Assembly: GCF_964222135.1 (NCBI RefSeq)
Contig: NZ_CAXQBR010000045.1
Span: forward strand, 62,001-126,000
Origin: Euzebya sp.
Lineage (GTDB): Bacteria; Actinomycetota; Nitriliruptoria; Euzebyales; Euzebyaceae
Reading direction: 5' to 3'
DNA: 64,000 nt
Below the pieces are notes generated by a model, which was not told where the DNA came from, ran no database searches, and saw nothing but the letters and a program-made list of their open reading frames with translations. The position numbers were made by a program, and so were the translations under genes. Shown here piece by piece: positions 23,414 through 56,111 of this stretch (within the stretch, counting starts at the first letter, position 1; every line of letters starts with the position of its first letter).

Positions 23414-23602
23414 CACGAATCGACTCCGCTGCCCCACCGATGGGCTCCGCAGTCGGACCCGGCGCACCCGTGACCTGCACCTCCACCCACGGATGTGCAC
23501 CGCGACGGTGATCGGGGCACGGTCTCGGAGTCGATCCGTGCCAGATGACCGTGCCAGCCGACCGTGCCAGCCGACCGTGCCAGACGACCGTGCCAGACGA
23601 CC
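23414..23602. repeat. 14-bp motif pair and five 13-bp iterons upstream of an SDR gene
   Basis: The 281-bp gap between divergent genes contains CACGAATCGACTCC (23414-23427) and, inverted, GGAGTCGATCCGTG (23527-23540), members of the dispersed motif family. The second overlaps five tandem 13-bp units starting at 23538, 23551, 23564, 23577 and 23590, of the form GTGCCAGNYGACC. The last unit ends 27 bp before the SDR start codon. I see no gene in the gap. Confidence 0.8.
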
Positions 23603-52140: not shown

Positions 52141-52255
52141 CGCGGCGACGGGCCTCGGCCGGGTTGCCACGGTTCGGCGACGTGCCGGGCGGGCCGACCC
52201 GCCTATCGTTGGGCGCCGCACCGGTGGTCAGAGTCTCGGAAGGTTGTGCTGCCCA

Positions 52256-53830
52256 GTGAAGGTCCTCGTTGCCGACGCCCTCAGCGACGCCGGCGTGTCG
52301 CTGCTCAGCGAGCGCTTCGACGTCGACGTGCGCACCGGGCTGCCCAAGGACGAGCTGGTCGCGGCCATCGGCGCCTACGACGCCGTGGTCGTGCGGTCGG
52401 CCACGACCATCGACGCCGACGTCCTGGCCGCGGCGGACAACCTCAAGGTCGTCGCGCGCGCGGGGATCGGCCTCGACAACGTCGACATCGAGGCGGCGAC
52501 CGCCCGCGGCGTCCTGGTCTGCAACGCCCCGCAGTCCAACATCATCTCCGCCGCCGAGCACGCGGTGGCGCTCCTCCTCAGCCTGGCCCGGAGGGTCCCC
52601 GAGGCGGACGCGTCCCTCCGCCGGGGGGAGTGGCTGCGGTCGACGCTGCAGGGCGTCGAGCTGGCCGGCAAGACCGTCGGGGTGCTGGGCCTCGGGCGCA
52701 TCGGGACCCTGGTCGCCCAGCGGCTGATGGCCTTCGGCGTCCGCCTGGTCGCCTACGACCCCTACGTCACGCCTGAGCGGGCGGCCCGGCTGGGCGTGGA
52801 GCTCGTCCCCACCGTCCTGGGCGTCTGCGAGGCGGCGGACATCATCACGATCCACCTGCCGAAGACGCCGGAGACGACCGGCATCGTCTCGAAGGCCGAG
52901 CTGCAGGCCCTCGGACCCGGCGGGCTGGTCGTCAACGCCGCCCGCGGCGGGCTGGTCGACGAGTCGGCGCTGCACGCGGCCCTGACCGAGGGGTGGATCC
53001 GCGGGGCCGCCCTCGACGTCTTCGACAGCGAACCGCCCGGGGACAGCCCGCTCCTCGGCCTGCCGAACCTGGTGGCGACCCCGCACCTCGGCGCATCGAC
53101 CGACGAGGCGCAGGACAAGGCCGGCACCCAGGTCGCCGAGGCGGTCGCCCTGGCCCTCGACGGCGAGTTCGTCCCCTCCGCGGTCAACGTCCAGGTCGGC
53201 GGCGGCATCCCCGAGGCGGTCAAGCCCTACATGCCGCTGACCGAGACCCTCGGCCGCCTGCTCACCGCGATCGCCGGCGGCCACGGGACCACCGGTGACG
53301 TCACGGTCGAGTACCGCGGCCGGATCGCCGGCGAGGAGACCCAGGCGCTGAACCTGTCAGCGCTCCGCGGGCTCCTGACCGACGTGGTGCACGAGCCGGT
53401 GACGTTCGTCAACGCCCCCCTCATCGCGAGCGACCGCGACCTGGTGCTGTCCACCCTCACCTCCGAGGAGTCGGTCGACTTCGTGTCCCTCGTCCGGCTC
53501 ACGGCGGGGGAGGACGCGGTGGCCGGCACCCTCGTCGGCCCCGCCCACAAGCCGCGGCTCGTTCAGGTGTGGGACTTCGACATCGACACCGAGCCGGCGG
53601 ACCACATGGTGTTCTTCCGCTACACCGACAAACCCGGCGTGGTCGGCATCATCGGCGGCAAGCTCGGCGACGCCGGGATCAACATCGCGTCGATGCAGGT
53701 GGGGCGTCGTGACACCGGGGGCGAGGCCCTCGTCGTCATGACCGTCGACTCCGCCATCCCCGCCGACGTCCTCGACGACATCGCGTCGGCGATCGGCGCC
53801 TCGGGGGTCCGGGCGGTCAGCCTGGTCTGA
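52256..53830 (+). CDS. serA: D-3-phosphoglycerate dehydrogenase
   Basis: A 524-residue enzyme for the first step of serine synthesis. The catalytic part has VVARAGIGLDNVDIEAATARG (family signature, quoted as ARAGIGLDNVDIEAATARG), the NAD fold VGVLGLGRIGTLVAQRL, the active Arg in VNAARGGLVDE and His in ATPHLGASTDEAQ. It then has the allosteric substrate-binding domain and a C-terminal ACT domain (KPGVVGIIGGKLGDAGINIA), so serine feedback is expected, as in mycobacterial SerA. GTG 52256 gives the standard N-terminus KVLVADALSDAG; TTG 52244 is possible. TATCGT (52204-52209) is a -10-like element and GGAAGG lies upstream. Confidence 0.96.
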   Translation: MKVLVADALSDAGVSLLSERFDVDVRTGLPKDELVAAIGAYDAVVVRSATTIDADVLAAADNLKVVARAGIGLDNVDIEAATARGVLVCNAPQSNIISAAEHAVALLLSLARRVPEADASLRRGEWLRSTLQGVELAGKTVGVLGLGRIGTLVAQRLMAFGVRLVAYDPYVTPERAARLGVELVPTVLGVCEAADIITIHLPKTPETTGIVSKAELQALGPGGLVVNAARGGLVDESALHAALTEGWIRGAALDVFDSEPPGDSPLLGLPNLVATPHLGASTDEAQDKAGTQVAEAVALALDGEFVPSAVNVQVGGGIPEAVKPYMPLTETLGRLLTAIAGGHGTTGDVTVEYRGRIAGEETQALNLSALRGLLTDVVHEPVTFVNAPLIASDRDLVLSTLTSEESVDFVSLVRLTAGEDAVAGTLVGPAHKPRLVQVWDFDIDTEPADHMVFFRYTDKPGVVGIIGGKLGDAGINIASMQVGRRDTGGEALVVMTVDSAIPADVLDDIASAIGASGVRAVSLV

Positions 53831-53853
53831 CCGGGCCCTGGTCTGACCGGGCC
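53821..53853. repeat. tandem duplication of the serA 3' end
   Basis: The 17-bp sequence CCTGGTCTGACCGGGCC (53821-53837), which contains the serA stop codon, is repeated from 53837 to 53853 with a 16-bp period. Confidence 0.8.
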
Positions 53854-54205
53854 CGTCAGGCGCCGGCGCCGGGCACCAGCAGTCCGCGCCCACCTCCCAC
53901 GGATCGACTCCGACGGCCCCTCCCGGAGGGGTCTGGTCGGCCCCACGACCGTGGGCAGGCGCGCCTCGCGAGCACGGATCGACTCCGGGAGAGGGGCTCG
54001 GTCCACGGGTGAGTGCCGATCTGTGCCCGGACTCCCTGGTCAGCGGGTTTCCACCCCCTCCAGTGGAGTCGATCCGTGGGGGTGCGGAGTCGATCCGTGC
54101 CCCGGGGAGGGCGGGGCGCCTGACCCTCCGGAGTCGATCCGTGCAGGTGCGGAGTCGATCCGTGCCCGAGGGAGGGGAGAGCCGTCAGGCGCCGGCGCCG
54201 GGCAC
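53854..54205. repeat. inverted array of a 14-bp motif between two copies of a gene end
   Basis: The 354-bp gap after serA carries no gene. It contains CACGGATCGACTCC at 53898 and 53973, and its exact inverse GGAGTCGATCCGTG at 54065, 54086, 54130 and 54151. The block is bracketed by a 23-bp perfect direct repeat, 53854-53876 and 54183-54205. The right copy is the last codons of the response-regulator gene; the left copy, read further, still encodes GRGLLVPGAGA and a stop, a relic of the same C-terminus. Confidence 0.85.
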
Positions 54206-54844
54206 GAGCAGGCCCCGCTCGAAGCCCTCGGCGACCGCGGCCGCCCGGTCGTTGACGCCGAGCTTCGCGTAGAGGTGGACCAGGTGGGTCTTGACGGTCG
54301 CTTCGCTGATGAACAGGGCGCGGGCGATCTGGCCGTTGGTCTCGCCGCGTGCGACGGCGCGGAGGATCTCGAGCTCCCGGTCGCTGACCCCAGCGCCCGC
54401 CGGGCGGCGCACCTGCCCCATCAACCGCGTCGCCACCGGCGGTGACAGGACCGCCTCGCCGGCGGCGGCCGCCCGGACGGCGCGGAGCAGCTCGTCCCGC
54501 GGCGCGTCCTTCAGCAGGTAGCCGGTGGCGCCGGCCTCGATGGCGGGCAGCACGTCGGAGTCGGTGTCGTACGTGGTCAGCACCACCACACGGGCCGCCA
54601 CGCCGTTCTCGGCCAGCGCGCGGATGGCCGACACCCCGTCGACGCCCGGCATCCGGAGGTCCATCAGCACCACGTCCGGGTCGAGCGCGCGGGAGCGGGC
54701 CACCGCCTCGGCGCCGTCCCCCGCGTCTCCCACGACCTCGATGCCCTCGGTGCCGGCGAACATGCCCCGCAGCCCGTCGCGGACAACCGGGTGGTCATCG
54801 ACGATCAGCACCCGGACGGGGCGCGTGCCCTCGGCCTCACCCAC
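54185..54844 (-). CDS. LuxR/NarL-type response regulator
   Basis: A 219-residue regulator. The receiver domain starts VRVLIVDDHPVVRDGLRG, with the phosphorylated Asp in VVLMDLRMPGVDG, Thr in VVVLTTYDTDSD and Lys in GYLLKDAPRDE. The C-terminal LuxR helix-turn-helix has VSDRELEILRAVARGETNGQ and FISEATVKTHLVHLYAKLGV. GTG 54844 is chosen: it gives the normal N-terminus and overlaps the kinase gene by 8 bp. The partner is the DesK/NarX-type kinase just upstream. The four-gene operon suggests that it controls the linked ABC transporter. Confidence 0.95.
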   Translation of the reverse strand: MGEAEGTRPVRVLIVDDHPVVRDGLRGMFAGTEGIEVVGDAGDGAEAVARSRALDPDVVLMDLRMPGVDGVSAIRALAENGVAARVVVLTTYDTDSDVLPAIEAGATGYLLKDAPRDELLRAVRAAAAGEAVLSPPVATRLMGQVRRPAGAGVSDRELEILRAVARGETNGQIARALFISEATVKTHLVHLYAKLGVNDRAAAVAEGFERGLLVPGAGA

Positions 54845-56111
54845 CCGTCGCCCCCACGGATCCGGCGACGGCCGAGGTCCCCTCCGCTGCGGCACCTGGG
54901 GACACCGGGACGGTGGCGGACACCGCCGTCCCCTCCCCTGGGGTCGACTCGACGCTGAGCCGGCCGCCGACGTGCCCCGCCCGCTCGCGCATGCCGACGA
55001 GCCCGAAGCCGTGCCGGGCGCCGGGGTCGTCCGCGACGAAGCCGACCCCGTCGTCGACCACGTCGATCGAGACCTCGTCGTCCATGAAGGACAGGGTGAC
55101 CGCGACGCGGCTGGCGGCGGCGTGCCGCTCGACGTTCGCGAGCGCCTCCTGGGCGATCCGCAGCAGCGCGACCTCGACGTCGGGGTCGAGGGGGTGCGCG
55201 GTCCCCGTCGTGGCCACCTCTGCGGCGACGCCGGTCCGAGCGGCCCACCCGCCGGCCACCTCGGCCAGGGCGCCGGCGAGCCGCGTGACCTCGAGCACTC
55301 CCGGCCGGAGCGCGTCGACGGAGCGCCGGGCCTCGGCGAGGGTCTCGCGGGCGAGCTGCGCGGCCACGCCGACGTGGCGGTCCCGGTCGGCGGGCTCGCC
55401 GGCCTGACGGGACGCCTCGAGCTGGGTGATGATGCCGGTCAGCCCCTGGGCGAGGGTGTCGTGGATCTCCTGGGCCATCCGCTGGCGCTCGTCGAGGATC
55501 CCGGCCTCCCGCGCCTGGGCGAGCAGGCGGGCGTGGAGGCCCTCGTTCTCCCGCTGGGCCGCCTCGAGCTCGGCGAGGGCCCCGCGCCGCTGCTCGCTCA
55601 GCTCGTTCAGCTTCTCGCCGCCGAGCATCCCCATGGTGATCGCCGCGGTCTGGATGGCGACGACGATGCCGTAGGTGGTCCAGCTCTCCCCGGTCGGGTC
55701 GTGCGCCACGATCTGGATGTTCACCAGCAGCGAGGTCGCGGCCACGCCGGCCGTGGTCAGCCACCAGCTCCGCATCACGTGGGCCTGGAAGAAGCCGCTG
55801 ATGACGTAGACGAAGTAGACCGGCTCCCGCAGGCTGAGGACGAGCCCGAACGCGAGCATGCCGGCGTAGTGGAGCCTGACCAGCCCCACGGGCCGGTCGG
55901 CGCGTGCCGGATCGACGCCCACCAGCACCCCCGACCAGGCGGCGGCCAGCGCGGCCAGCCCGAGCGTGCCGGCGGCACCGTCCCGCGGGCCGGAGACGGT
56001 CATGGCGACCGCGGTCGCGACCGCCAGCGTGAGGTACGGGGACCACGCGGCGAGGCGGTCGAACCCCCGGTCCCACGGGCTGGGTGCGGCGAGACCGCCG
56101 GGAGTGCTCAT
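54837..56111 (-). CDS. sensor histidine kinase (HisKA_3, DesK/LiaS type)
   Basis: A 424-residue kinase. About six membrane helices fill residues 20-180 (YLTLAVATAVAMTV, VYFVYVISGFFQAHV, AIQTAAITMGML among them) with no large external domain, so the signal is probably sensed in the membrane. A coiled coil (RGALAELEAAQRENEGLHAR) precedes the HisKA_3 box QRMAQEIHDTLAQGLTGII, with the phosphorylated His. The HATPase domain has IAQEALANVERHA, VDDGVGF and GFGLVGMRERAG. The ATG overlaps the permease stop (ATGA). The family often senses membrane fluidity or antibiotics acting on the membrane. Confidence 0.93.
   Translation of the reverse strand: MSTPGGLAAPSPWDRGFDRLAAWSPYLTLAVATAVAMTVSGPRDGAAGTLGLAALAAAWSGVLVGVDPARADRPVGLVRLHYAGMLAFGLVLSLREPVYFVYVISGFFQAHVMRSWWLTTAGVAATSLLVNIQIVAHDPTGESWTTYGIVVAIQTAAITMGMLGGEKLNELSEQRRGALAELEAAQRENEGLHARLLAQAREAGILDERQRMAQEIHDTLAQGLTGIITQLEASRQAGEPADRDRHVGVAAQLARETLAEARRSVDALRPGVLEVTRLAGALAEVAGGWAARTGVAAEVATTGTAHPLDPDVEVALLRIAQEALANVERHAAASRVAVTLSFMDDEVSIDVVDDGVGFVADDPGARHGFGLVGMRERAGHVGGRLSVESTPGEGTAVSATVPVSPGAAAEGTSAVAGSVGATGG

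Follow-up and report, generated by a model that had tools for sequence, protein, structure and literature searches.

The repeat block at positions 53898-54164 of the window (the whole 64,000-nucleotide stretch of DNA that was analysed) is one of about 17 dispersed multi-box sites in the host genome and not an isolated insertion. Together with a gene on the same contig, outside the window (C45:15582-16568), whose product combines an AbiEi-like winged helix with a predicted nuclease domain, these sites probably constitute a repeat-plus-enzyme system working by the mechanism that we propose below; that the nuclease gene and the boxes form one system is very likely. Since related enzymes in other bacteria are each bracketed by repeats of their own, which differ from enzyme to enzyme, the system seems to be of an undescribed type, and a search of open-access literature found no published description of the gene-repeat pairing.

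A direct search of the window reproduced the six exact copies of GGAGTCGATCCGTG that the earlier note had counted, arranged as an inverted array (Table 1) with serA (52244-53830, + strand) on one side and a response-regulator gene (54185-54895, - strand) on the other. When up to two mismatches are allowed the window contains 9 box matches against a shuffle mean of 2.0, and 9 were reached in none of 100 shuffles. The locus resolves into one core element (53973-54099) with additional outer boxes. Neither a promoter-like nor a terminator-like site was found in the block. Inverted boxes fold strongly as a single strand (z -4.5, DNA parameters).

Table 1. Coordinates of the boxes, core motifs and duplicated gene ends in the window
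Feature	Position	Strand	Remarks
Second element, box L2	23414..23427	-	1 mismatch
Second element, box L1	23435..23448	-	degenerate, CACCGATGGGCTCC
Second element, core motif	23470..23477	+	GTGACCTG
Second element, box C	23487..23499	-	CCACGGATGTGCA on + strand
Second element, box R	23527..23540	+	exact
Detached last codons and stop of response-regulator gene	53853..53889	-	local duplication, not seen at other elements
Outer box	53898..53911	-	exact copy; 75 bp from R
Core element, box R	53973..53986	-	CACGGATCGACTCC on + strand; exact copy and place in architecture
Core element, box C (within core)	54014..54026	-	degenerate; columns aligned over 13 elements
Core element, CTGASSWG core motif	54036..54043	-	CTGACCAG on - strand; 0.86 mean pairwise identity among elements
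Core element, box L1	54065..54078	+	exact copy; 92 bp from R
Core element, box L2	54086..54099	+	exact copy; 21 bp from L1
Outer box	54130..54143	+	exact copy; 44 bp from L2
Outer box	54151..54164	+	exact copy; 21 bp beyond outer box 54130..54143
Matching 3' end of the intact response-regulator gene	54182..54218	-	

Across the host genome (5.06 Mb in 111 contigs) there are 41 exact copies of GGAGTCGATCCGTG, against 0 for the reversed pattern used as a control. These copies group into about 17 elements of one common build, in which inverted, helically phased boxes surround a 77-78 bp core that contains a degenerate fourth box and the motif CTGASSWG. With the core motif taken as giving the orientation, the order is L2, L1, CTGASSWG, the degenerate C (CCACGGATGTGCA) and the inverted R, with spacings of 21 bp from L2 to L1, 53 bp from L1 to C and 39-40 bp from C to R; the inner distance from L1 to R is 91-92 bp in most elements, and extra outer boxes occur at 32-33, 43-44, 53-54, 64 or 75 bp. 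A sequence model built from 13 elements gives 16 strong matches in the host (57.9 bits or more), which with one degenerate element (L031, at C1:13528) bring the number to about 17. The elements lie at gene 3' ends (several of them just downstream), at gene starts, between convergent genes and, in some cases, between divergent ones. The description in the earlier note of a small repeat element belonging to a dispersed family is thereby borne out, including by a second full element at 23.4-23.5 kb of the window; that note saw the repeats, but neither their constant build, nor the motifs of the core, nor the nuclease gene linked to them. A paired-box scan over 84,980 species returned just two matches, both in coding-like sequence and judged to be due to chance. 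The contig that holds the window (C45, 137.7 kb) carries 5 of the roughly 17 elements, far above its share of the 5.06 Mb, as if elements clustered close to the nuclease gene. We also observed five tandem 13-bp units (CCGTGCCAGACGA and variants) at 23536-23600; they begin within box R of the second element and stop shortly before the following gene.

Comparison of the host elements with one another showed a marked difference between boxes and the sequence separating them: mean pairwise identity is 0.96 for L2, 0.89 for L1, 0.95 for R, 0.81 for C and 0.86 for CTGASSWG, against 0.37-0.49 for the four spacers. The spacings fall on multiples of the helical turn, with a best period of 10.9 bp (R=0.77) in the host and of 10.55 bp (R=0.97) in the sister species. 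That boxes and phasing are conserved while the spacers drift fits a protein bound to double-stranded DNA; it does not fit recent copying of entire elements. The helical phasing and the random spacers likewise speak against reading the elements as transcribed hairpins that would, for instance, protect mRNA ends or terminate transcription. The strong single-stranded folding of the inverted boxes and the position of several elements just downstream of genes would suit such a role, but there is no Rfam match at the gathering threshold, the window block has no terminator-like site and some elements lie between divergent genes, all of which makes an RNA function very unlikely.

The perfect 23-bp repeat that the earlier note placed on either side of the array is real: 53853-53902 and 54182-54231 are 82% identical across 50 bp, with a perfect run of about 24 bp. 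Both copies encode RGLLVPGAGA followed by a stop, and the last 10 codons differ only synonymously. The left copy does encode the end of the gene, as had been claimed, with frame and stop kept, but it is the right copy that belongs to the intact gene, the left being detached. The further step, that an insertion had duplicated its target, finds no support, as flanking direct repeats exceed background at only one of 16 host elements, the window locus with its 37-bp repeat (score 29.5, against at most 11.5 for the other 15 and a 99% background level of 13.5). A miniature transposon that duplicates its target upon insertion would account for this one repeat and for dispersed elements with inverted ends; with 15 of 16 elements lacking a flanking repeat above background, and with spacers not common to the copies, we consider it extremely unlikely. 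Given this ratio, the gene-end duplication is a local event. As the reading frame is kept and the differences are synonymous only, the left copy (53853-53889) may represent an end of the same response-regulator gene that is older or came from elsewhere. The gene serA is conserved in all three sister species but the adjoining response regulator is not, its nearest homologue being 58% identical. In one of these species (G002) the gap downstream of serA (L093) is filled by tandem 19-20 bp units, GGTGGGGAACCTGACCT, which contain CTGACCT and so resemble the core motif of the host element.

The nuclease gene lies between two elements (C45:15397-16947). In the sister species G003 a homologous gene, whose product is 39% identical to the host protein, likewise lies between two elements, and neighbouring genes are common to both. 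Profile searches with 27 homologues recovered an N-terminal AbiEi-like winged helix (AbiEi_4 in 12 of 27, PADLOC AbiEi in up to 25 of 27); the host protein itself matches PADLOC AbiEi weakly (E 0.0019). In the C-terminal domain E205, Q223, D233, E244-Y245, H251 and D258 are invariant in all 27, and E205, D233, H251 and D258 correspond to the E, D, H, D of the EDxHD pattern. DUF559 matches 12 and MTES_1575 10 of the 27 homologues, and the best solved relatives are the endonuclease-like protein 3hrl and the mobile-intron endonuclease 3r3p, at E values around 0.001 (0.0012 for 3r3p). From the invariant residues and these weak profile matches, the domain is predicted to be a Vsr/EDxHD-type nuclease.

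We then find that the pairing of gene and boxes extends to the close homologues, 8 in total (4 in the host, leaving out a fifth, distant match, 1 each in G001 and G003 and 2 in G002). For the comparison, architecture and flank-alignment tests replaced an initial repeat-count statistic that was too noisy. The results were: 1) all 8, from four genomes, are flanked on both sides by inverted box arrays, and the box differs from gene to gene. 2) In 4 of the 8 both flanks fit the R-C-L1-L2 architecture better than all of 139 control windows. 3) GTGYACCGAGAGTY, the box of the orthologues L127 (G002) and L128 (host, G000), has 16 and 7 copies in those genomes and 0 in G001 and G003, both of which lack this paralogue; hence, for the one family tested across species, dispersed boxes are found only where the matching gene is present. 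4) The more nearly identical the winged helices, the more similar the boxes (Mantel r=0.49, p=0.012, among only 8 proteins); for the nuclease part of the same 8 proteins there is no such correlation (r=0.19, p=0.13). These observations bear on the possibility that the sites serve a chromosome-organising protein unrelated to the nuclease gene. Dispersed, conserved and orientation-bearing sites would be in keeping with such a protein, but gene-specific boxes flanking 8 of 8 close homologues, a box family that tracks the paralogue and the statistical association in distant homologues described below render it quite unlikely.

Two of the three congeneric genomes, G001 and G003, contain the same four-box build with a different box, GGAGKCGATTCCRTC, present in 21 and 25 exact copies respectively and absent from the host, G002 and 62 other relatives. 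In these two genomes C is present as a complete box, with spacings of 21/22, 53 or 64, and 40. At least seven element loci and the nuclease locus match between G001 and G003 by their flanking genes. Alignment of six such orthologous loci gave 87% identity in the boxes and 72% in the spacers, the latter figure being inflated by gapped alignment. Further related box families, GGGGACGATTCC and GGGTCAAGATCCGTC, occur at some sister-species loci, and the box flanking the G001 nuclease gene differs from the main dispersed family of that genome. In G003, element boxes also surround a gene that resembles a transposase, apparently one of the mutator (IS256) type; at this locus (L106, G003:C1:1954500-1961500) the further box families GGGGACGATTCC and GGGTCAAGATCCG are interleaved.

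Beyond the genus, we took the best local alignment between the 450 bp upstream and the 450 bp downstream of each gene as a measure of shared flanks. Within the class, 15 of 24 homologues scored above all 105 control genes. In the phylum, where the family is found at E<=1e-25 in 71 of 296 genomes, 14 of 40 homologues exceeded the 99th percentile of 193 controls and 17 of 40 reached p<0.05; about half of the distant homologues have no shared flanks. One non-family control among the phylum loci (L209-L248) had a very high score, 86.8, and could likewise be a gene flanked by repeats. Hairpins, single or in tandem, make up many of the shared stretches; the hairpin next to the homologue of one class member (G039) has 19 copies, with up to one mismatch, in its own genome, and three other genomes contain none of it or no more than expected by chance. 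A search of plasmids found no relatives of the long AbiEi-nuclease protein. With a hand-written DUF559 consensus as query, plasmids of Alphaproteobacteria, Deinococcus and a cyanobacterium yielded DUF559 genes that stand alone; 5 of 10 of these scored above all 95 controls, and 7 of 10 reached p<=0.021. One of these genes (L274, Sinorhizobium meliloti CP090106.1, 2669845-2672538) is bracketed by near-identical blocks, 114 bp long, of CCCTCTCCCC-type hairpins; the record contains this block at 26 places, and parts of the block turn up in 161 plasmid records.

We propose that the AbiEi-like winged helix would bind the boxes on one face of the helix, that copies bound at L2, L1, C and R would fold the approximately 127-bp site into a nucleoprotein complex joined across the core, and that the Vsr/EDxHD-type domain would nick or cut at the core or at similar sequences. 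Past cutting and repair might have seeded the dispersed copies, and most sites would now be passed on where they stand, with selection on binding preserving them; the random-like spacers argue against recent copying of whole elements. Judged from sequence, it is quite likely that the winged helix binds the boxes and reasonably likely that the nuclease activity is used, while we consider the chances that the enzyme spread the elements to be evenly balanced. The strongest rival is a pure operator role, in which the boxes are operators, the AbiEi-like protein is an (auto)regulator, the dispersed sites are its regulon, and the nuclease-like part is vestigial or otherwise used. Phased boxes do resemble protein sites, and the promoters of the genes for AbiEi and Rv2827c contain two or four 23-bp inverted repeats to which these proteins themselves bind (PMC7319586). 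However, arrays are also present downstream of the gene, elements occur at gene 3' ends and between convergent genes and not just at starts, the window block has no promoter-like site, and the catalytic residues E, D, H, D do not vary among 27 homologues. A role confined to regulation is thus unlikely, though less so than the other alternatives, and a repeat-plus-enzyme system is the reading that we prefer.

Many short bacterial palindromic repeats have no known maker, and the nuclease family in question, annotated as 'DUF559' or 'AbiEi antitoxin', is very common. More tentatively, and with slightly less than even confidence, we suggest that AbiEi-Vsr/DUF559 nucleases represent a second, non-HUH class of enzymes, each maintaining and spreading its own palindromic or multi-box repeats across phyla. 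If true, this class would explain many orphan REP-like families, including the CCCTCTCCCC-type hairpins around the rhizobial stand-alone DUF559 gene. If each gene so annotated is accompanied by a repeat family of its own, it becomes possible to test which enzyme lies behind such repeats, and many 'AbiEi antitoxin' annotations may denote something else. As each protein adjoins its own presumed recognition sequence, the system would also give a ready table of winged-helix specificity.

In its overall organisation the system recalls REP/REPIN sequences and their RAYT (TnpA-REP) enzymes, the 'REPtrons' (PMC3116915, PMC3733652, PMC8266576): both consist of short, dispersed, intergenic inverted repeats with a single enzyme gene flanked by its own repeats, and in both different enzymes go with different repeats. 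An enzyme flanked by a dispersed repeat is thus present in the host, but the enzyme is unrelated, the host element has four phased boxes over about 127 bp rather than being a single tagged hairpin, and the box GGAGTCGATCCGTG has no GTAG tag. The Y1 (HUH) transposase domain, PF01797, has 0 matches in the host genome in a search that was positive in 5 of 14 control genomes, and a RAYT partner for the elements was accordingly rejected; lacking Y1 transposase and GTAG tag, the family falls outside REP/RAYT. Palindromic repeats without a dedicated transposase have been reported in the CGTC-tagged REPs (Di Nocera 2013, PMC3733652), and some boxes here end in CGTC, a link that we treat as a lead only. 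With the EDxHD homing endonucleases, such as I-Bth0305I (PMC3943268), the protein shares the E, D, H, D pattern, the weak profile match to 3r3p and the tethering of a DNA-binding domain to a nuclease. I-Bth0305I reportedly forms a dimer on a target that spans nearly 60 bp (PMC3943268). Homing genes, however, interrupt their own target, whereas here an intact gene has an array on either side, and the array recurs many times elsewhere. With the AbiE type IV toxin-antitoxin systems it shares the AbiEi kind of N-terminal winged helix, and the AbiEi antitoxin is known to bind inverted repeats near its own gene (PMC7319586, PMC3985639); in the present family, by contrast, a predicted Vsr-like nuclease domain replaces the C-terminal antitoxin domain, and the arrays lie on both sides of the gene and are dispersed through the genome.
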